Part shown: piece by piece, positions 37,400 through 51,307 of the stretch | Numbering within the stretch: the stretch's first letter is position 1 | Layout of the letters: each line of letters begins with the position of its first letter | Assembly (NCBI GenBank): GCA_002067865.1 | Contig: MVRC01000002.1 | Coordinates: forward strand, 1 to 51,426 | From: Methanomassiliicoccales archaeon PtaU1.Bin124 | Lineage (GTDB): Archaea; Thermoplasmatota; Thermoplasmata; Methanomassiliicoccales; UBA472 | Length of the DNA: 51,426 bases | Reading direction: 5' to 3' | Translations under genes and position numbers: made by a program | The notes under the pieces: generated by a model | Told to the model about the DNA's origin: nothing | The model's database searches: none | What the model saw: the letters and a program-made list of their open reading frames with translations, nothing else

Positions 37400-39397
37400 T
37401 TGCCTCTTCTGGCAGGGATCGTCGCCGATCCCTCATCAGATGAGGACCAAGAACTTGAACGAGGAGGCGAACGGGATTTGTATCAGACGAGCATCGAAAC
37501 AGAAAGCAACCGGATCTCGAGGGATCTCAATGCCCAAGGCATATCTGACATCACATTGTGGGCGAACCGAGGGGCAAAGGAGGTCTTTTGCCGGGATCAG
37601 GCAGACCTACCCCCACTGATCAAATCGATGATGTTCAAGGCAGAGCCAGCGGTCATCGTCCAGCCTCATTCTGCGACGGCCGTGAGCGCCATCCTCTCCT
37701 ACGCCTCCAAGAAAAAGATCCCGATCACTCCGCGCGGAGCCGGCTCCTCCCCGTTCGGTGGGGCTGTCCCAGTAAAGGGCGGGATCGTCATAGATATGAG
37801 CGTTATGGACCAGGTCATTTCCATCGATGAACAGAAGAAGGAGGCCAAGGTCCAGGCGGGTACCAGGTGGGGGGATCTGGATTGGCAGCTCGAGCCCAAA
37901 GGTCTCGCTATACGTTCCTGTCCTTCCTCTCGCTTTTCCACAGTGGGTGGATGGCTGGCCACCGGCGGAGTGGGGGTGGAGAGCTTCTCCGGAGGTCCTT
38001 TCTCCGACTCAGTGGTCGAAGCCGAGATCGTTCTTCCCAGTGGTGAGATCAAGACCATCACTCCAAGCGACTGTTTGTTCAAGTCCCTGGCCGGGAGTGA
38101 AGGCAGGGTCGCGGTCATCACCTCGATAACCTTGAAACTGAAGGAAAGACGGAAGGTCACCCCTCATCTCTTCGTTTTCAGTACGACCGATCAGGCCATC
38201 GATTTCGCCGAAGAGGTTGCCTCTACCGAAATCTATCCAGACGACATCGTTTACTACCATGAGGCGAAATTCGGTCATCTCAACAAGATCTTAGGAAAGA
38301 AGGTCTTTGTAGAATCCCCGGGCATCGTCATGACCGGCTGGAACCTGCCTCAAGGGAATGCCCTTCGGTCCCTGGCACGAAAATTTGGCGGCAGGGAAGA
38401 GGAGGACTACAAGGCATCGCTAGCATGGAATGAGCGTTTCTTCCCGATGAAGTTCCGATTGCTGGGTCCAGGTATGCTCGGTTCAGAGGCGATCGTGCCG
38501 AAGGATCATTTCAAAGCGGCCGTGAAGGCTGCCGAGACGACCGCCAGGCTGTATGGCCTCGAACCGATCATGGAATCGCACTTCGTCAAGGGCGGAGAGC
38601 GGCTTGTCCTCTGTTATTACATAACCGACCAGACCCGGTTGGCCAGCTACATGATGGATGCGGTCCGCTCCTTGCTCATCATGACGGCCATGGTGGACGA
38701 AGGTGCCAAGGCCTACTCCACTGGCCTATGGTACCATGTGTTCCTGGACAAGAAGGAACCAACGCACTCAGAGCGCGAGGCGCTGAAGAAAGAGATCGAC
38801 CCCTCCGCTTCCCTGAACCCTGGCAAGGGTAAGGTGCTGGCAGGAAGCATGGGCGGGATCCCGGCCAAGCTGCTCAGCCCTTCTATGGCCCCCGTCCTCA
38901 GATTGCTGAACAACGCCATGCCATTGACCAGTCGCGCCCTCGCCCTGGTCCAGAACGTCGAGGGCGTGGTCCTCGGCGCACAGGACCTGAGCGAACTGAC
39001 CCATGCGGCCAACGCCTGTGCCATGTGCGGCGCTTGCGTAAATGTATGTCCAGCATATCAGGCCACAAAGGATGACAGGGTCACAGCACGGGGTAAGCTG
39101 CTCACAGCCCGTATGATGGACCAAGGACGCGGGATATCCAAGGAGCATGCCCAGCGTACCTTCCTATGCATGAGATGCAAGGCCTGCGAGCAGGTGTGCC
39201 AATCGAAGCTGCACCTTCTGCCCCTCTATGATGAGCTGGAAGCCAAGCTCGAGGCGAAGTATGGAAGGGACCTGGATGAGATAACCAAGTTCGTCCAGTA
39301 CGTGGAGTCATCGCCGGAGTACGATGTCCTTCTGAAGAAGGGGCTGGTCATCGGTGCTCCGCGCAACGGTATGGACGGGAGGGATGGCAGTGTATAA
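37400..39397 (+). CDS. FAD-linked oxidase fused to two [4Fe-4S] ferredoxin motifs (GlcD-HdrC-like)
   Basis: 665-residue redox protein. The FAD-binding PCMH domain begins near residue 85 (VQPHSATAVSAILSYASKKKIPITPRGAGSSPFGGAVPVKGGIVIDMS), with the C-terminal FAD-oxidase domain to about 475 (PSASLNPGKGK). Ferredoxin motifs CAMCGACVNVC and CMRCKACEQVC follow near 540-600. The CCG domains of true HdrD/GlpC-type proteins are absent. GlcD-like enzymes oxidise 2-hydroxyacids such as glycolate or lactate; the substrate here is unknown. The start is TTG 37400 by elimination: TAG at 37388-37390 lies upstream in frame and the first in-frame ATG is near 37629. It overlaps the next gene by 14 nt. Confidence 0.88.
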   Translation: MPLLAGIVADPSSDEDQELERGGERDLYQTSIETESNRISRDLNAQGISDITLWANRGAKEVFCRDQADLPPLIKSMMFKAEPAVIVQPHSATAVSAILSYASKKKIPITPRGAGSSPFGGAVPVKGGIVIDMSVMDQVISIDEQKKEAKVQAGTRWGDLDWQLEPKGLAIRSCPSSRFSTVGGWLATGGVGVESFSGGPFSDSVVEAEIVLPSGEIKTITPSDCLFKSLAGSEGRVAVITSITLKLKERRKVTPHLFVFSTTDQAIDFAEEVASTEIYPDDIVYYHEAKFGHLNKILGKKVFVESPGIVMTGWNLPQGNALRSLARKFGGREEEDYKASLAWNERFFPMKFRLLGPGMLGSEAIVPKDHFKAAVKAAETTARLYGLEPIMESHFVKGGERLVLCYYITDQTRLASYMMDAVRSLLIMTAMVDEGAKAYSTGLWYHVFLDKKEPTHSEREALKKEIDPSASLNPGKGKVLAGSMGGIPAKLLSPSMAPVLRLLNNAMPLTSRALALVQNVEGVVLGAQDLSELTHAANACAMCGACVNVCPAYQATKDDRVTARGKLLTARMMDQGRGISKEHAQRTFLCMRCKACEQVCQSKLHLLPLYDELEAKLEAKYGRDLDEITKFVQYVESSPEYDVLLKKGLVIGAPRNGMDGRDGSV

Positions 39398-40760
39398 GCG
39401 CTACCACATCCACACCGAAGAGGCCCTTCCCAGGGTCGCGCCGGTGGGCAAGTTCGACATCGTGCGGGCGGAGAACTGCGTCAACTGCGGGACCTGCATC
39501 CGTTCCTGCGTCTACGGGGTCCATAAGCGGGACGAGAAGGACGGCCGCTCTATGGCCGAGCCCCTCAGCCATCTGTGCAAGAACTGCTTCCGCTGTCTGA
39601 TGGAATGCCCTCAGCGGGCATTGTCCATGTCGCCTGGGAAGGTGTACAATTCCCTCGGCATCGGCGTCTGGTCGCCGCAGAGGGTTTTCACCATGTGGAA
39701 CGAGGCGCAATCGGGCAAGATACCAGTGTTCGGGGCCGGATACCGGGGACGATTCTCCGGGCCTGGATTCGATGGAATGTGGACTGACATGTCCGAGATC
39801 GTCCGCCCTACCAGGGATGGCATCCACGGCAGGGAGTACATCTCGACCAGCATGAGCCTGGGCCGCAAGCTGCGCTATCTGGAGTTCGATCAGCAGGGAA
39901 GGCTCCAGACGGCAGTGCCACATGTCATCGAGCTGCCATTGCCCATGGTCCTGGACGCCACCCGCTTGGGCCTGACTGACGAATCGCTCAAGGGGATGGT
40001 GTCGGCCGCCGCGCACATCGGGACCTTCATTCTGGTACCGGTGGAAAAGACTGGGCTGTTCCGCGGTGAAGAACAGCAGTTCATCGTTCCAGTGCTTCTG
40101 GGCGGGACTCTTGAGCTCTCTCTTCCAGAGAGCACCAGGATGGTCGAGATCCGCCGATCGCCTGGCTGGGAATCATTGATGAGGCACGTGAAGAGCGCTC
40201 GGCCAGACGTCCTGGTCTCTGTCAGGTTGAACGCTGGCAAGGACGTTGAATCAGAGGTCCTGCAGATCGCCAAGGCCGGGGCGGACATCGTGCATTTGGA
40301 CTTCGGTGAGGACGGGAAGGAGGCAGGTAACGATGGCCGATGGGCTAGGGACGCCCTGCGCTCCATCCATACCAATCTCGTCAGGAACGGACACAGGGAC
40401 CAGATCACAATTCTGGCCGGAGGGGGCATCGCCGCTGCAGAACACGTTCCAAAGAGCATCATATGCGGGGCCGATTGCATCGTACTGGAGAAGGCGCTGA
40501 AGGTGGCCTTGGGCTGCCATGCCTGCCCCGACTGCAAGATGACCTGTCCGGCCGATCTCAAGACCGCACCGTCCGACTGGGTGGAGAAACGCGTCACGAA
40601 CATGGTGGGCGCCTGGAGGGACCAGCTCCTTGAGGTCATGGGAGCGATGGGCATCAGGGAGGTCCGCCGCCTGCGTGGAGAGCAGGGCCGGGCCATCTTC
40701 TACGAGGATGCAGAGAGGGACGCATTTGCTGGAATAACCGCAGCTGAAAGGAGTGGTTGA
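39384..40760 (+). CDS. Degenerate glutamate synthase GltB2-like protein with ferredoxin domain
   Basis: 458-residue paralog of the next gene. N-terminal ferredoxin: C32/C35/C38/C42 (CVNCGTCIRSC) and C65/C68/C71/C75 (CKNCFRCLMEC). A TIM-barrel-like segment follows with KAGADIVHLDF and LAGGGIAAAEHV, then CHACPDCKMTC in the place of the GltS Fe-S cysteines. The active-site loops of GltB2 seen in the neighbour (GGMSYGS, EGGYPDAL, AQGAKPGLGGHL) are not recognisable, so it may lack FMN chemistry and act as a structural or electron-relay partner. The start is ATG 39384 or GTG 39390; the latter is better spaced from GGGAGG. Overlaps the FAD oxidase gene. Confidence 0.82.
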   Translation: MAVYKRYHIHTEEALPRVAPVGKFDIVRAENCVNCGTCIRSCVYGVHKRDEKDGRSMAEPLSHLCKNCFRCLMECPQRALSMSPGKVYNSLGIGVWSPQRVFTMWNEAQSGKIPVFGAGYRGRFSGPGFDGMWTDMSEIVRPTRDGIHGREYISTSMSLGRKLRYLEFDQQGRLQTAVPHVIELPLPMVLDATRLGLTDESLKGMVSAAAHIGTFILVPVEKTGLFRGEEQQFIVPVLLGGTLELSLPESTRMVEIRRSPGWESLMRHVKSARPDVLVSVRLNAGKDVESEVLQIAKAGADIVHLDFGEDGKEAGNDGRWARDALRSIHTNLVRNGHRDQITILAGGGIAAAEHVPKSIICGADCIVLEKALKVALGCHACPDCKMTCPADLKTAPSDWVEKRVTNMVGAWRDQLLEVMGAMGIREVRRLRGEQGRAIFYEDAERDAFAGITAAERSG

Positions 40761-40761
40761 A

Positions 40762-42255
40762 ATGAACGATGATCTGTGCGATACCGAACCGAACCCCCAT
40801 GTCCCGTCCCAGCGCCTCAAGGCCGTCAGCCGTAACGCCGTCATCAGGAACGAGGCAAGCTGCATATCTTGCGGGCTGTGCGAATCGCTCTGCCCATACG
40901 GTGTGCACCGCCGCATCGAAGGCCATGTGCACCTCCTACCTCCCTATGAAGGTAAGTGCATCGGTCCAGAATGCGCCAAGAACGACTTCTATTGTGTGAA
41001 CCGCTGCCCCACCCGCTCGCTCAGCGTGAAACCCAATGTCACCTTCACCAGCCTGGGTGATTTCCGCTGGACCTCGGAGATGATCCTTTCCACGTGGAAG
41101 ATCGCCGAGACCGGACAGCCATTACCGCTCGACCATCCGGCCAACATGGGTCGCTCGGGCGGAGGGTTCGATACTCTCGCGTTCAAGATACCTGCGGCCA
41201 AGGGGAACCCAGACCCGGACAGGTTCTCCACCTCCATCGAGCTGAACCGCAGGAAGGAAGGCCCGCGCCTGAAGATCGGCATCCCGGTCTATGGGGGAGG
41301 CATGTCTTATGGCTCGGTCAGCTTGAAGGTCATGACCGCCAGGGCCATCGTGGCCAAGCAATGGAACACCCTTACCTGCACTGGCGAGGGTGGTTATCCA
41401 GACGCGCTGGTGCCTTACAGCGACCACGTGGTGACTCAGGTCGCCACAGGTCTGTTCGGGGTCAAGGAGGAGACCATCCAGAGGGCCCCGATGGTGGAGT
41501 TCAAGTACGCCCAAGGCGCAAAGCCAGGCCTGGGCGGTCATCTGCTGTACGAGAAGAACACCCCGATGGTGGCCAAGATGCGCCAGGCCGTGCCGTACAC
41601 CAGCCTGTTCTCTCCGTTCCCGTTCCACAGCGTGTACTCCGTGGAGGATCACAAGAAGCATCTGGACTGGATCCATTCGATAAATCCCAGGGCCCTTTTG
41701 TCCGTCAAGGTCTCGACCCCCAACGACGTGGAGATGGTGGCGGTCGGTTCCTACTATGCCGGCGCCAACATCGTCCACCTGGATGGCGGATATGGAGGCA
41801 CAGGAGCCGCGCCGGAGATCGCCAAGAAGAACATCGCCCAGCCCATCGAATATGCCATCTCCAAGGTGCACAAGTTCCTGGAGAAGGAAGGCATCCGCGG
41901 CGATGTCACGCTGATCGCATCGGGTGGCATCCGCAATGCCATGGACGTGGCCAAGGCCATCGCCCTTGGTGCAGACGGCGTGGTCATCGGAACCGCTGAG
42001 CTGGTCGCCATCGGCTGCGTTCGCTGCGCCAACTGCGAGAGCGGCCGGGGCTGCCCCAGGGGCATCGCCACCACCGACCCGCAGCTGGAGGTCCAGAACG
42101 AGACCGAGGTCATGGTGCGCCGGGTGAGCAATCTGTACAATGCCTGGAGGCTGCAGTGGTGCGACCTGCTGAACCGTTTCGGCATGGACGACATCACCCA
42201 ACTGCGCGGAAGAACGGACCTTCTCAGACGCGTTCCCGAGGGGGTGGCCCAATGA
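40762..42255 (+). CDS. gltB: Glutamate synthase FMN/Fe-S domain protein (GltB2) with N-terminal ferredoxin domain
   Basis: 497-residue protein. Ferredoxin motifs are C34/C37/C40/C44 and C66/C71/C78/C82 (spacing of the second cluster is unusual). The FMN-binding glutamate synthase core then shows YGGGMSYGSVSLKVM, TCTGEGGYPDALVPYSD, YAQGAKPGLGGHL, LLSVKVSTPNDVEMVAVGSYYAGANIVHLDGGYGGTGAAPEIA, ASGGIRNAMDVAKAIALGADGVVIG and CVRCANCESGRGCPRGIAT (3Fe-4S-type site). It reduces 2-iminoglutarate to glutamate in GltS. ATG 40762 is preceded by an excellent Shine-Dalgarno AAAGGAG (40747-40753), just after the upstream stop. It overlaps the next gene by ATGA (42252-42255). Confidence 0.93.
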   Translation: MNDDLCDTEPNPHVPSQRLKAVSRNAVIRNEASCISCGLCESLCPYGVHRRIEGHVHLLPPYEGKCIGPECAKNDFYCVNRCPTRSLSVKPNVTFTSLGDFRWTSEMILSTWKIAETGQPLPLDHPANMGRSGGGFDTLAFKIPAAKGNPDPDRFSTSIELNRRKEGPRLKIGIPVYGGGMSYGSVSLKVMTARAIVAKQWNTLTCTGEGGYPDALVPYSDHVVTQVATGLFGVKEETIQRAPMVEFKYAQGAKPGLGGHLLYEKNTPMVAKMRQAVPYTSLFSPFPFHSVYSVEDHKKHLDWIHSINPRALLSVKVSTPNDVEMVAVGSYYAGANIVHLDGGYGGTGAAPEIAKKNIAQPIEYAISKVHKFLEKEGIRGDVTLIASGGIRNAMDVAKAIALGADGVVIGTAELVAIGCVRCANCESGRGCPRGIATTDPQLEVQNETEVMVRRVSNLYNAWRLQWCDLLNRFGMDDITQLRGRTDLLRRVPEGVAQ

Positions 42256-44876
42256 TCGGATACACCAAAGAACTGATCGGATCCAGGGAATGGATGATGG
42301 ACTGCGCCCTGCCGAAATGGCTGAAGTCGGAGGAGGCCGAGGGCGGATGCGGCGTGGTCGGACTGACCAGCACCGTGCCGGTGGAAGGGAAGCATTTCTT
42401 CGAGGCGCTGGCCCAGATGCACAACAGAGGCAACGGGAAGGGAGGCGGCATCGCCGCCGTCGGCCTGATGCCCGAGCAGATGGGCGTATCACGCGAGGTG
42501 CTCGACAGCCATTACCTGATCCAGGTGGCCTACATCCGGCCAGAGGTAAGGGAGGAACTGGAGAACGAGCACATCAAGAGCAACTTCCTCATCCACAAGT
42601 CCATCCAGGTGGATGAATCGAAGGACCCAGGGCTATTAGCCAGGCTGGAAGTAAGGCCACCCACGGTGGTGCGTTACTTCTGCCGTGCCAGACCTGAGGT
42701 GCTGGAGGCGTTCATCAAGGAGAAGGGGCTGCAAGGTCTGGAGAGGGCCAGGGCGGAGGACGAGTTCGTCAACCAGTCCAGCTTCCGCATCAATCACAAA
42801 TATTACGCCACATCGAACATGGCAGCGTTCGTGATGTCCCAGGGGCGGAACATGCTCATCATGAAGATCGTCGGTTACGCCGAGGACGTCATCCGGTATT
42901 ATCGCATGGAGGAGTTCAGGGCGAACATATGGATCGGCCACCAGCGCTATCCTACCAAGGGAAAGGTATGGCATCCCGGCGGGGCGCATCCCTTCATGGG
43001 GCTGGACGAGGCACTGGTCCACAACGGCGACTTTGCCAACTACTATGCGGTCTCGGAATACCTGGCCCAGAGGAACGTCACTCCCTTGTTCTTGACCGAC
43101 ACAGAAGTCTCTGTGCTCCTGTTCGATCTATTGAACCGCACCTACCGATATCCGCTGGAGTACATACTTGAGGCGCTGGCCCCGACGACGGAGAGGGACT
43201 TCCATCAACTATCGCCGGAGAAGCAGGCGCTGTATCACGCCATCCAGAGCACTCACATGCATGCATCACCGGACGGCCCTTGGTTCTTCATCATCGCACG
43301 CAATTGCCATTATGATGGAGAGATGCAGCTGATCGGGATCACTGACACATCCATGCTCCGGCCCCAGGTGTTCGCGGTGGTCGAGGGCGATATGAGGGTC
43401 GCACTGGTGGCATCTGAGAAGCAGGCCATCGACGCCACGCTGACCTCACTTTCGCAGCAATATCCCTCGGTGCCGAAGAGGGCGGATGTCTATTGGAATG
43501 CCAGGGGCGGAAGCCATACCGATGGCGGGGCCTTCATATTCAACCTGCGTCCAGACGGTAAAGGTCTCAAGCTGACCGTGACAAACAAGTTCGGGGCGGA
43601 GGTCAGCACGAACGTATCCCAGTGGGACCAGAAGGCAGACCTGGAGCTGGCCACCCCCACCCCGAACATGACCCCGGGGGCATGGGCCAGAAGATTGGCG
43701 ATCACAGATGCCGAGCCGGTCTTCCAGGAGATCGTGGCCACGATCCCCAAGATGTCCGTTAACGATGTCCAAGGACTGCTTTCCGATATTGCGTCCTCGG
43801 CATCACTGGGACCATCCGAAATGAAGCGTTCCATCGACCTGTTGACGCTCCTGATCGACCGGCGCTATCCCACTGGCCCGTACCGGCGGAGCAGGTTGGT
43901 GACCCTTTACGAGGAGACCTTGAACCGTATCCTCAGGTCCATCCCAGTTGTCCAGGAAAGGAAGGGCGGCAGATATGCCAGGGTCGATGTCAGGCACCGT
44001 GCCGGCATCGTCGTCCCAGCGGATGGGCAGGAGGTACTGGCCATCGATTGCCGCGACTTCCCCATGGAAGGTGACGAAGGTCCATCGTTCGCCATAGTGG
44101 AAGGGGTGAGGAACGGGTGGAAGAACTTCATCATGTTCGATGCGCATGGCCAGAGGTTCTTCGGTTGCGGCATAGGTTCGAACTCCAAGGGCGTTCGGAT
44201 CGACGCATATGGCACACCTGGCGATTATCTGGCATCGGGTCTGGATGGAGCCGAGATCGTGATCCATGGCAACGGGCAGGACCAACTTGGGCAGATCCTC
44301 GGATCAGGGAAGCTGGTCGTGCACGGCGATGTGGGCCAGACATTCATGTACGGTGCCAAGGGCGGCGAGGTGTTCATCATGGGCAATGCCGCGGGCCGCC
44401 CCCTCATCAACGCAGTGGGAAGGCCGAGGGTCCTCATCAACGGGACATGCCTCGACTATCTGGCCGAATCGTTCATGGCCGGTGATCCGTTGAACGGCGG
44501 AGGGTTCGTGATCTTGAATGGGATGAAGATCGATGCCGCAGGTGTCCCTGTGGAACTTCCCGCCCCATACCCGGGCGGCAACCTCTTCTCCCTTGCTTCC
44601 GGCGGGGCCATATACATACGCGACCCGCACCAGATGGTGGGTGAGGATCAGCTGAACGGAGGAAGGATATCCAAGCTTACGGCGTCCGATTGGGACCTTA
44701 TTCTGCCGTATCTGCAGGAGAACGAACGGCTGTTCAGCCTAAAGGTCGGCGATCTGTTGACAGTTGAAGGTCAGGTGAAGGAACCAGACCAGGTCTACCG
44801 TAAGGTGGAAGCGGTCCCCGTGGCCACTGCTGCCAATAAGGTCGCTCTCAATGACGACGAGTCTGCTGGCGATTAA
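42252..44876 (+). CDS. Glutamate synthase class II amidotransferase (GltB1) fused to GXGXG domain (GltB3)
   Basis: 874-residue protein. The N-terminal glutamine amidotransferase has the nucleophile candidate C33 in GGCGVVGLTS, behind a 32-residue leader instead of the bare N-terminal Cys of processed GltB. Glutaminase residues appear as IGHQRYPTKGKVWHPGGAHPF and LVHNGDFANYYAV. The middle and the C-terminal beta-helix (GXGXG) domain from about residue 635 show GCGIGSNSKGVRIDAYGTPG, IHGNGQDQLGQ, GKLVVHGDVGQTFMYGAKGGEVFIMGNAAGRPL and LNGGGFVILNG. It releases ammonia from glutamine for the GltB2 site. In other archaea these domains are often separate proteins. ATGA overlap with gltB2 indicates translational coupling. 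Confidence 0.93.
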   Translation: MIGYTKELIGSREWMMDCALPKWLKSEEAEGGCGVVGLTSTVPVEGKHFFEALAQMHNRGNGKGGGIAAVGLMPEQMGVSREVLDSHYLIQVAYIRPEVREELENEHIKSNFLIHKSIQVDESKDPGLLARLEVRPPTVVRYFCRARPEVLEAFIKEKGLQGLERARAEDEFVNQSSFRINHKYYATSNMAAFVMSQGRNMLIMKIVGYAEDVIRYYRMEEFRANIWIGHQRYPTKGKVWHPGGAHPFMGLDEALVHNGDFANYYAVSEYLAQRNVTPLFLTDTEVSVLLFDLLNRTYRYPLEYILEALAPTTERDFHQLSPEKQALYHAIQSTHMHASPDGPWFFIIARNCHYDGEMQLIGITDTSMLRPQVFAVVEGDMRVALVASEKQAIDATLTSLSQQYPSVPKRADVYWNARGGSHTDGGAFIFNLRPDGKGLKLTVTNKFGAEVSTNVSQWDQKADLELATPTPNMTPGAWARRLAITDAEPVFQEIVATIPKMSVNDVQGLLSDIASSASLGPSEMKRSIDLLTLLIDRRYPTGPYRRSRLVTLYEETLNRILRSIPVVQERKGGRYARVDVRHRAGIVVPADGQEVLAIDCRDFPMEGDEGPSFAIVEGVRNGWKNFIMFDAHGQRFFGCGIGSNSKGVRIDAYGTPGDYLASGLDGAEIVIHGNGQDQLGQILGSGKLVVHGDVGQTFMYGAKGGEVFIMGNAAGRPLINAVGRPRVLINGTCLDYLAESFMAGDPLNGGGFVILNGMKIDAAGVPVELPAPYPGGNLFSLASGGAIYIRDPHQMVGEDQLNGGRISKLTASDWDLILPYLQENERLFSLKVGDLLTVEGQVKEPDQVYRKVEAVPVATAANKVALNDDESAGD

Positions 44877-45924: not shown

Positions 45925-46410
45925 TTGAGCGCCCTCGAATTGCTCTCCGATATGGTCAAGGACGGAACGACCCCGGAGTCATCATTGGACCCCCTGGACG
46001 ACCTCATGATGAACGAGGACCTGGAGATACGCAAGGCAGCCCTTTTTCTGCTGGGCAAGTTCGCCTTGAAGAAGTCGGGCCACATGGAGTCCGTTCCGAT
46101 GCTTAACGACATGCTGAGAGACCAGGACCCGGAGATTAGAGAGAACGCCGCCTGGGCATTGGGGGAGTTGGCCGGGATCGATGTGGGCGAGCTATGCACC
46201 CCATACTACCTCAACTATCCATTGAAGGACGACGTGGCCGAGGTGCGGGCCATGGCCGCATGGGCCGAAGGCAGGTATGCCGAAAAGATGGGGGTCGGCA
46301 GGAACGATACCGTCCGCCTGCTGAAGGAGCTGTTGGAGGACGAGAGCGGACAGGTGAGGAAGGGCGCTGAATGGTCTCTTCAGCGATTCAAGGAGATCGG
46401 CCTCGAGTGA
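45925..46410 (+). CDS. HEAT-repeat protein
   Basis: 161 residues from TTG 45925, with HEAT/armadillo-like repeats visible: EDLEIRKAALFLLGKFAL, DQDPEIRENAAWALGEL, DDVAEVRAMAAWAEGRYAE and DESGQVRKGAEWSLQRF. Such repeats bind proteins or act in phycobilin-lyase-like adapters; the role here is unknown. The reading frame is open upstream to a TAA at 45823-45825, with plausible HEAT-like sequence (TIEEKIAAINKNLRSKDKAAVLSALELL) but no ATG, GTG or TTG in frame before 45925. A GGTGG precedes an ATC codon at 45865, so a longer protein with an unusual start or a sequence error is possible. TATA-like TTTAATATC at 45821. Confidence 0.8.
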   Translation: MSALELLSDMVKDGTTPESSLDPLDDLMMNEDLEIRKAALFLLGKFALKKSGHMESVPMLNDMLRDQDPEIRENAAWALGELAGIDVGELCTPYYLNYPLKDDVAEVRAMAAWAEGRYAEKMGVGRNDTVRLLKELLEDESGQVRKGAEWSLQRFKEIGLE

Positions 46411-48402: not shown

Positions 48403-49473
48403 ATGACCACCAGGATAGCGATCATAGGGGGATTCCTCGGAGCGGGCAAGACCACCATAATCAACAAGCTGGCCAAATCATTGAAGGAGAAGGGGAACAA
48501 TGTGGCCATCATCACCAATGACCAGGGCGAGGCATTGGTCGACACCAAATATTGTGCCGACAACGGCATCGAGGTGGCAGAGGTGCTCCGCGGTTGCTTC
48601 TGTTGCAAGTTCCCTGATTTCATGCATTCCGCTCGCGGACTGGTGGGCAGCAAGGGGCCCGAGGTCATCCTGGCTGAACCGGTCGGTTCATGCACCGACC
48701 TTCTCGCCACTGTCGTGGCACCGTTGAAGGTCATGTATCCCAAGGAGTTCACCGTCGCCCCGCTCGTGATCCTGGTGGACTCGGAGCGAGTGCTGGAGCA
48801 AGGCTTCGACCCTGAGAAGATCGGCGATTACCTGCGGAAGCACCAGATCATGGAGGCTGAGCACGTTGTGTTGTCGAAGACCGACAAGGTCACGGCGGAA
48901 GAGCTCGACGAGATAAAAGAGGTCATCACGACCCTGAACCCCCATGCCCACATCATATCCTATTCCGCCATCACGAACAAAGGGCTCGACAAGATACTGG
49001 CGATCATCCTTTCCAACGATGTCAGCGCCAGGACCCCGGTGGACATCGACTACGACATCTATGCCAAGGCCGAGGCCGAGCTGGGTTGGTATAATGGAAC
49101 CTTCCGCTTCCATGCGAAGGACAAGGTCGATGGCTATGACATCGCCACCAAGGTGTTGCGTTCCATCGCCGCGCAGTATGGCGCCGATGATATCGCCCAT
49201 GCCAAGATCATGCTGCAATCGGAAAGATCGAGCATGAAGATCAGCTCGGTCATGCAGAACATCACCGTGGACAACGTTTCTGGCTCACGTTATGCCGATG
49301 GGAATGTGACCCTCACGGTGAATGCCAGGATCGTCTCATCACCTGAAATGCTCAGGCAGACCGTGAGGATGGCCGTGCAGAAGACCATGGAACAGGCCAA
49401 CATAGCCATGAGCGGGTTCGAGGACGACTGCTTCTCGCCGTCACGGCCGAACCCCACCCATCGGATGAAGTGA
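48403..49473 (+). CDS. CobW/G3E-family GTPase (CxCC)
   Basis: 356-residue P-loop GTPase of the COG0523/G3E type. Walker A GGFLGAGKTT (9-18), the metal motif GCFCCKF (C65, C67, C68) and the guanine-specificity SKTD in VVLSKTDKV are visible. The C-terminal domain (ELGWYNGTFRFHAKDK...) differs from the usual CobW_C, but is shared with the paralog at 50189. G3E GTPases load metals (Zn, Co, Ni) into target enzymes; the metal here is unknown. A TATA-like ACATATATCTA (about 48358-48367) precedes the ATG by 35 nt. The set with the Cys-rich regulator and second copy spans 48403-51307. Confidence 0.88.
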   Translation: MTTRIAIIGGFLGAGKTTIINKLAKSLKEKGNNVAIITNDQGEALVDTKYCADNGIEVAEVLRGCFCCKFPDFMHSARGLVGSKGPEVILAEPVGSCTDLLATVVAPLKVMYPKEFTVAPLVILVDSERVLEQGFDPEKIGDYLRKHQIMEAEHVVLSKTDKVTAEELDEIKEVITTLNPHAHIISYSAITNKGLDKILAIILSNDVSARTPVDIDYDIYAKAEAELGWYNGTFRFHAKDKVDGYDIATKVLRSIAAQYGADDIAHAKIMLQSERSSMKISSVMQNITVDNVSGSRYADGNVTLTVNARIVSSPEMLRQTVRMAVQKTMEQANIAMSGFEDDCFSPSRPNPTHRMK

Positions 49474-50188: not shown

Positions 50189-51307
50189 ATGCCCTGCGGC
50201 ATGACCCCCGCTACCAGCAAAAGAACGAGATTTGTGATTCTGGGCGGTTACCTCGGTGCAGGCAAGACCACGTTGGCGGCAGCATTGGCGAAGCAGCTGC
50301 GGGACGTGCATGGACGTTCGGTCGCGGTCATAACGAACGATCAGGGGGACGCTCTCGTCGACACGGCCTACATGAAGAATGCCGGGGTGGACGTGCGTGA
50401 GGTGCTGGGGGGTTGTTTCTGCTCGCACTTCGATGAGTTCGTCAAGAGCGCCCGAAGCCTTGTCAACATGGTCCGTCCGGACATCATCATCGCCGAGCCG
50501 ATCGGCACATCTACCAATGTGCTGGCATCGGTCGTCGCCCCGCTCCGGGAAATGTATCCGGACGAGTTCGAGGTCGCTCCGCTGTTCGTCGTCCTGGACC
50601 TATCCAGGGTGGACGAGACCCTTAAAAAGGCATCGTCCTTCGGATTGGGAGGGGGCAGGATCATACCATCTCACCAGGTGCATGAGGCGGAGATGGTGCT
50701 GCTGACCAAGGCGGACCTGGTGAACGAGGCCGCGATCCAAGGTGCGGTGGCCCGATTGGCCCAGGAAGTGCCGGATGCGAAGGTACTGCCAGTGAGCGCC
50801 AGGACCGGAACTAACATCGAGGCGCTGGCACAGTTCGTCTCTTCAGGTGCGACATCATCCAAGGCGGCCTTGGGGGTCGATAACCGCATGTTCGCCACTG
50901 AGAAGGCGACCATGGGGTGGTATTCGGGAACGGCGGAGGTGGAGTGCGGCGATAGAGGCGATGCCTATGCTATCTGCCGTAACATCCTGGATAAGGTCGG
51001 AACCGCCTATGGAGGGGACAACATCGGCCACGTCAAGCTAGTGTTCGAATCGGAGGCGGCCTCCCTTAAGATGTCCCTGGTGGCCGATTCCGCCCAGGTG
51101 GACGGGATCAAAGGCGGGCGTTACGCCAAGGGGAAGGGCAAGATGGTCATGAACGCACGAATCATGGCCCCGCCCACGGAGATCCGCAAGACGATGGAAA
51201 AGGCGTTGCGCAACGTCTGTGATGGTATGGGAATGACCATAACCAGTTACCGGGACAGCGTCCTCAGGCCGGTCCCGGAGGTCCCCGATCATTTCAGAAC
51301 CAAGTGA
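50189..51307 (+). CDS. CobW/G3E-family GTPase paralog (CxCS)
   Basis: 372 residues. Walker A GGYLGAGKTTLAAALAKQL (from residue 19), DQGDALVDTAYMKNAGVDVREVLGGCFCSHF (C76, C78, then Ser79) and TKAD in VLLTKADLV. Its C-terminus (MFATEKATMGWYSGTAEVECGDRGDAY) is the same kind as in the 48403 paralog. The third Cys of the G3E metal site is Ser here, so metal affinity or role may differ. ATG 50189 or 50201. The TATA-like CATTTAACG (50171-50179) is too close to ATG 50189 for a leaderless start. It is the last complete gene in the window. Confidence 0.88.
   Translation: MPCGMTPATSKRTRFVILGGYLGAGKTTLAAALAKQLRDVHGRSVAVITNDQGDALVDTAYMKNAGVDVREVLGGCFCSHFDEFVKSARSLVNMVRPDIIIAEPIGTSTNVLASVVAPLREMYPDEFEVAPLFVVLDLSRVDETLKKASSFGLGGGRIIPSHQVHEAEMVLLTKADLVNEAAIQGAVARLAQEVPDAKVLPVSARTGTNIEALAQFVSSGATSSKAALGVDNRMFATEKATMGWYSGTAEVECGDRGDAYAICRNILDKVGTAYGGDNIGHVKLVFESEAASLKMSLVADSAQVDGIKGGRYAKGKGKMVMNARIMAPPTEIRKTMEKALRNVCDGMGMTITSYRDSVLRPVPEVPDHFRTK

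Follow-up and report, generated by a model that had tools for sequence, protein, structure and literature searches.

Four consecutive genes from a methanogenic archaeon encode what we consider, on balance, to be one archaeal split-type, multi-subunit glutamate synthase (GltS), in which a protein with FAD and two [4Fe-4S] clusters would replace GltD as the electron entry. The genes lie in a 51,426-nucleotide stretch of DNA from Methanomassiliicoccales archaeon PtaU1.Bin124, here called the window. The organism is taken to be a methanogen because its genome (G000; 2.2 Mb, 99.8% complete) encodes methyl-coenzyme M reductase and its named relatives belong to the Methanomassiliicoccaceae or to other Thermoplasmatota. 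Glutamate synthases whose donor is known are supplied by NAD(P)H through GltD or by ferredoxin without an intermediary. A FAD/[4Fe-4S] subunit of different fold, fixed in the operon and co-evolving with it, would provide a third electron entry. The operon points to a new route for electrons into this central enzyme of nitrogen metabolism, in anaerobic archaea, a setting where ammonia assimilation is little studied.

Table 1. Positions in the window of the four genes and of selected sequence features
Feature	Position	Strand	Description or basis
FAD subunit gene	37478..39397	+	639 aa; FAD-linked oxidase fold, FAD_binding_4 and weak FAD-oxidase_C, C-terminal 2x[4Fe-4S] dicluster
FMNd	39384..40760	+	458 aa; ferredoxin domain (2 CxxCxxCxxxC), truncated GltB2-like barrel and C-terminal Cys motif (Pfam)
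GltB2	40762..42255	+	497 aa; catalytic subunit; ferredoxin-like Cys set and FMN-binding synthase domain, CxxCxxCx5C motif
GAT	42252..44876	+	874 aa; class II glutamine amidotransferase fused to GXGXG beta-helix domain (PF13522, PF01493)
Two CxxCxxCxxxC motifs of the FAD subunit	39017..39199	+	C514 to C574; family-invariant
Presumed catalytic Cys33 codon of GAT	42348..42350	+	Sequence, alignment
GltB2 Shine-Dalgarno AAAGGAG	40747..40753	+	Sequence

The genes overlap or nearly touch (Table 1). The FAD gene, with its stop at 39397, overlaps the FMNd ATG at 39384 by 14 nt; the FMNd stop at 40760 is separated by 1 nt from the GltB2 ATG at 40762, with AAAGGAG just before it; and the GltB2 stop at 42255 and the GAT ATG at 42252 form an ATGA overlap. 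This layout agrees with the preliminary description of the locus, and Pfam likewise bore out its reading of the domains: the first gene carries FAD_binding_4 and a [4Fe-4S] dicluster, as expected of a FAD-linked oxidase with two ferredoxin clusters, and the GATase, ferredoxin-GltB2 and GXGXG domains of GltS are all in the operon. Gene 2 combines a ferredoxin domain with only the second half of Glu_synthase, gene 3 a ferredoxin domain with most of Glu_synthase, and gene 4 GATase_6 with GXGXG. The gene content as first described stands in its domains but not in its count of barrels, as there are two GltB2-like genes, the first of which (39384-40760) is a truncated paralogue. For the FAD gene, the TTG at 37478 is a more likely start than the TTG at 37400 (a 665-aa alternative), because GAGGAGG (37461-37467) lies ten bases ahead of it; the downstream conclusions are independent of this choice.

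The catalytic motifs of the core are intact. GltB2 matches PF01645 with E 4e-87 and GltS structures in the PDB with E 1e-46, or E 4e-56 with a 16-member profile, and aligns to the solved glutamate synthases across the whole synthase domain. Its Lys248, Gln251, Lys254, Arg274, Ser293 and Glu295 are kept at the 2-oxoglutarate/FMN positions of cyanobacterial GltS. Four of these (Q251, K254, R274 and S293), invariant in 16 members, align with Synechocystis Gln969, Lys972, Arg992 and Ser1011, which we take to have roles in the 2-oxoglutarate/FMN site. The Fe-S ligands that follow the barrel (CVRCxNCESGRGCPRG) are invariant in the FAD-bearing loci. In GAT, the motifs EAEGGCG (C33), HQRxPT, HNGDFANY and TDTE are invariant in 15 aligned members, and the GXGXG domain matches PF01493 with E 6e-10. 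A 32-aa leader precedes Cys33, the presumed N-terminal nucleophile once the leader is removed. Since the glutaminase, FMN and 2-oxoglutarate sites show no variation in their catalytic residues, the operon likely has glutamate synthase activity.

FMNd is a homologue of GltB2 over its full length (hhalign E 2e-48), and the top Foldseek matches of its predicted fold (a modest model, pTM 0.75) are glutamate synthases. It lacks the ~65 residues that hold the GEGG and QGAKPGLGG motifs, the FMN/substrate segment, and its barrel is probably non-catalytic. The central domain of bacterial GltS is a truncated barrel and possibly a duplicate of the FMN barrel (PMC8097209). FMNd looks like an independent instance of this kind of duplication, here standing as its own gene, and bears on the question raised in that work of whether the bacterial central domain came from FMN-barrel duplication. 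Direct homology between FMNd and that central domain is no more than weakly indicated: profile comparison strongly favours the FMN barrel (hhalign E 5e-12 versus 1e-3 for the central domain, a weak second match with P 0.001 and prob 22), and we claim only a functional analogy; PF04898 was detected in one of 19 FMNd members.

Gene order and sequence divergence show that the FAD gene and the GltS-like genes have long been inherited together by vertical descent. Among 293 genomes of the phylum, five more FAD proteins were found at 42-46% identity, all five in the identical four-gene order; the next-best matches cover shorter stretches, at no more than roughly one-third identity. GTDB genomes contributed 21 further loci (one a duplicate). 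To the extent that contigs reach, the order FAD-FMNd-GltB2-GAT is kept in 26 distinct archaeal loci: FAD-FMNd is present in 26 of 26, the run continues to GltB2 in 24 and to the GATase-GXGXG gene in 21, and every locus short of the full operon is at a contig end. FAD-family proteins above 40% identity were seen only with the four-gene operon (six of the 293 genomes and the 21 loci). The order is kept while the FAD subunits diverge to 41% identity, pairwise distances of the FAD and GltB2 proteins correlate with r=0.93, and the main clades of the two trees agree. The co-occurrence of the four genes, proposed earlier as a check, was borne out, with the FAD gene linked in every locus found; the 26 distinct loci also rule out chance adjacency or an assembly artefact. 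Plasmid collections searched with FAD and FMNd gave distant matches only. In one metagenome-assembled genome FMNd is in two frames (L101, 8375-9711), by sequencing error or decay.

A second tie links the FAD gene to the ferredoxin clusters that FMNd and GltB2 carry. In FAD-bearing loci, CxxCxxCxxxC motifs occur in both FMNd and GltB2 wherever the contig covers them, except at L101, where FMNd is broken and the GltB2 call is without its start. FAD-less units, with a core of FMNd, GltB2 and GAT, occur in genomes of families f32, f13 and f33 (FMNd and GltB2 being fused in f33). No CxxCxxCxxxC was found in FMNd or GltB2 at the nine FAD-less loci with neighbourhoods or at further ones with GltB2 only, and among the loci examined the FAD gene is never absent where GltB2/FMNd carry clusters. 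Because relatives without the FAD gene are also without the clusters of both GltB2-like subunits, the pattern supports reading the gene and the clusters as one electron-input module, with the co-loss amounting to only about two evolutionary events (the presence/absence label changes on two branches of the barrel tree). Conserved, co-inherited and tracking these clusters, the FAD gene has held up as a partner of the GltS-like genes.

The three-gene relatives of f32 and f13 (L073-L077, L079-L081) share the FMNd-GltB2-GAT order and the GATase motifs, with GltB2 62-65% identical, but the FAD gene is missing and their FMNd/GltB2 are free of ferredoxin clusters. The f32/f13 genomes tested contain no GltD/GltA of any kind; their core appears to function in the absence of both FAD subunit and GltD and so can take electrons by another way. 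The f33 locus L078 (G042:C107, 1128-10094) encodes an 840-aa FMNd-GltB2 fusion followed by GATase-GXGXG, then EtfB, ferredoxin-EtfA and a CCG-domain protein, and may hold a third electron-input module for this core.

PF01565 (FAD_binding_4) was found in 19 of 19 aligned FAD-subunit members, and both dicluster motifs are invariant across the family. An AlphaFold2 model of the subunit (pTM 0.80) has as its best PDB match a D-lactate dehydrogenase (TMt up to ~0.8 over ~470 columns), with other structure matches to AGPS and LctD; its neighbours in sequence are GlcD/LctD/D-2-hydroxyglutarate dehydrogenase kin. The active site is another matter. In all members the EHGxG motif is replaced by an invariant YSxGxW and, of the GHxxDGNxH site, the first His is kept (H368) but the second metal-site His is lost; canonical GlcD paralogues of the same phylum (L123-L126) have both EHGVG and the GHxxDGNxH site. 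In the alignment an invariant Arg, R320, lies close to the canonical substrate-side W..RK motif. The lost EHGxG and second His rule out an ordinary GlcD-type 2-hydroxyacid dehydrogenase, and weaken the earlier suggestion that the subunit, for all its D-lactate-dehydrogenase-like fold, oxidises 2-hydroxyacids.

The preliminary description had also noted the absence of GltD/GltA. As ferredoxin-type GltS has no need of GltD, such an absence alone does not remove the operon from the GltS group. This is so for the operon, and no GltD was found within the window, but it does not extend to the genome: contig C16 of G000 carries its sole Fer4_20 protein, of GltA/NfnB type (610 bits against the NCBI gltA cut-off of 472), in a FlpD-NfnA-NfnB-hydrogenase-small-subunit cluster (MvhG-like). 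Proteins of the GltA/NfnB family occur in sister genomes both with and without the operon. A sole partnership with such a gene was the outcome that would have counted against the FAD gene; the gene exists, but in G266 (99% complete) the operon is present and no GltD/GltA was found, which rules out GltA/NfnB as an obligate partner. Directly 3' of the operon, nfnA is found in five non-methanogen relatives (G251 (L036/L145), L093, L095, L097 and L106); L097 apart, nfnB adjoins it in each. This proximity leaves room for an NAD(P)H link, with NfnAB or ferredoxin as a plausible supplier, and the electron donor may be ferredoxin, an NfnAB-linked route or an organic substrate.

PF01645 scans found conventional archaeal GltB as the sole real GltB in G168, G087, G224 and G292, all without the operon, and the operon without conventional GltB in G083, G266, G251 and, as assembled, G000, whose contig ends near CobW where G168 keeps its conventional GltS, so that an unassembled copy in G000 is possible. 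G062 and G192 have both. This pattern across sister genomes is what interchangeable enzymes would give, and favours the same reaction for the two systems. Every genome tested also encodes glutamate dehydrogenase, so glutamate has a source other than the operon. Downstream of the operon lies proA in five loci, in most of them with proB as well (proline from glutamate).

Several further observations concern neighbouring genes. In the window, a HEAT-repeat gene (45925-46410) and two CobW-type genes (48403-49473 and 50189-51307) are 66-72% identical to G168 genes that border the conventional archaeal glutamate synthase of that genome. The conventional enzyme there adjoins CobW-1; in the window the four-gene operon adjoins the HEAT gene, at the opposite end of the HEAT/CobW block, and the contig stops 119 bp past CobW-1. 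Three glutamine-synthetase-family genes of G000 are on contigs C11 and C15. An MttB-family (trimethylamine-type methyltransferase) gene lies upstream of the operon on the opposite strand in L036, L089, L090, L092, L093, L095, L099 and L106, in most cases with an MFS transporter, and among the loci examined both genes occur only outside the Methanomassiliicoccaceae group. Family f2 (L112-L117, L119, L120) has a bacterial-type full-length GltB of ~1460 aa, mostly directly after a ~728-aa glnA-like gene, and no GltD was seen in those loci.

We infer a single complex whose overall reaction would be glutamine + 2-oxoglutarate + 2 e- -> 2 glutamate. Ammonia would be freed from glutamine at Cys33 of GAT-GXGXG, and GltB2 would bind FMN and 2-oxoglutarate and reduce 2-iminoglutarate. 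Electrons would pass from FAD through the dicluster of the FAD subunit to the ferredoxin clusters of FMNd and GltB2 and on to FMN. FMNd, a duplicated GltB2, would most likely have a structural, tunnel-lining role like that of the bacterial central domain, and would contribute extra ferredoxin clusters.

The strongest competitor, which we nevertheless think rather unlikely, is that ferredoxin feeds FMNd/GltB2 directly, with or without supply from NfnAB, and that the FAD protein is accessory, regulatory or an electron drain. The conventional archaeal GltS loci of sister genomes, with a ferredoxin-type GltB2 and no adjacent GltD or FAD gene, are of just this kind, and the nfnA genes beside the operon and the nfnAB of C16 would provide the supply. 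The lack of GltD/GltA in G266 speaks against this reading, and a FAD gene that always accompanies cluster-bearing GltB2/FMNd, with an invariant dicluster, is hard to fit to a dispensable part. Another alternative is that the enzyme does something else with GltS parts, in another amidotransferase-coupled reductive amination. N-methylglutamate synthase is a GltS-like three-part enzyme of other function; the addition of FMNd and the FAD subunit is unusual, and the MttB-like gene upstream in eight non-methanogen relatives could be read in the same direction, whether the product is N-methylglutamate or derives from another 2-oxoacid. The conserved 2-oxoglutarate/FMN and glutaminase residues, the tendency of the operon to replace conventional GltS and the proA/proB neighbours make this improbable; no GMAS or NMG dehydrogenase neighbours are annotated in the window.

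Equally improbable is a GltS that draws its electrons from an organic substrate oxidised by the FAD subunit, for example the 2-hydroxyacids D-lactate or D-2-hydroxyglutarate. The lactate/pyruvate couple (~-190 mV) could reduce 2-iminoglutarate, and the fold, the kin in sequence and R320 all fit such a substrate, but the motif losses in all members do not, and no substrate-linked neighbour is kept across the whole group. Were D-2-hydroxyglutarate the donor, one complex would make two glutamates from 2-hydroxyglutarate and glutamine. Slightly less remote, though still quite unlikely, is the broader combination of a GltS wired by its VAO-fold FAD subunit to the oxidation of an organic substrate or other non-pyridine donor with a free-standing, dead-barrel counterpart of the central domain. 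A glutamate synthase with the FAD subunit as electron entry remains the reading we prefer.

Archaea are already known to have split and rearranged glutamate synthases (PMC2614490, PMC8097209), including a rearranged split enzyme in Ignicoccus hospitalis (PMC2614490). We found no literature on a FAD-linked oxidase with glutamate synthase, nor on GlcD with glutamate synthase in Thermoplasmatota, and no description of a fixed FAD/dicluster subunit, a truncated paralogue and a GATase-GXGXG fusion as one set; the search covered openly accessible papers and is weak evidence of novelty. The conventional archaeal split GltS (GATase, ferredoxin-GltB2 and GXGXG genes, as at L083 in G168) has the same catalytic parts on separate genes and shares the ferredoxin domain on GltB2 and the lack of an adjacent GltD. 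The GltB2 barrels of the two nevertheless fall in separate, strongly supported clades, and the operon differs in its GATase-GXGXG fusion, truncated second GltB2 and fixed FAD/dicluster gene. With bacterial NADPH-glutamate synthase GltBD (PDB 1ea0, 6s6s, 7mfm) it shares the class II GATase, the FMN barrel and GXGXG; the central domain of GltBD is a truncated barrel and a possible FMN-barrel duplicate, as FMNd appears to be. Unlike GltBD it consists of four polypeptides without GltD, and has a VAO/PCMH-fold FAD protein instead of the Fer4_20/Pyr_redox_2 protein. The VAO/PCMH flavoproteins GlcD, D-lactate dehydrogenase and LctD (PDB 8jdv, 9qit, 7qh2) have the FAD-binding domain and overall fold in common with the FAD subunit, which is set apart from them by the loss of the canonical metal and catalytic motifs, a C-terminal dicluster without CCG domains, and its GltS-like companion genes.
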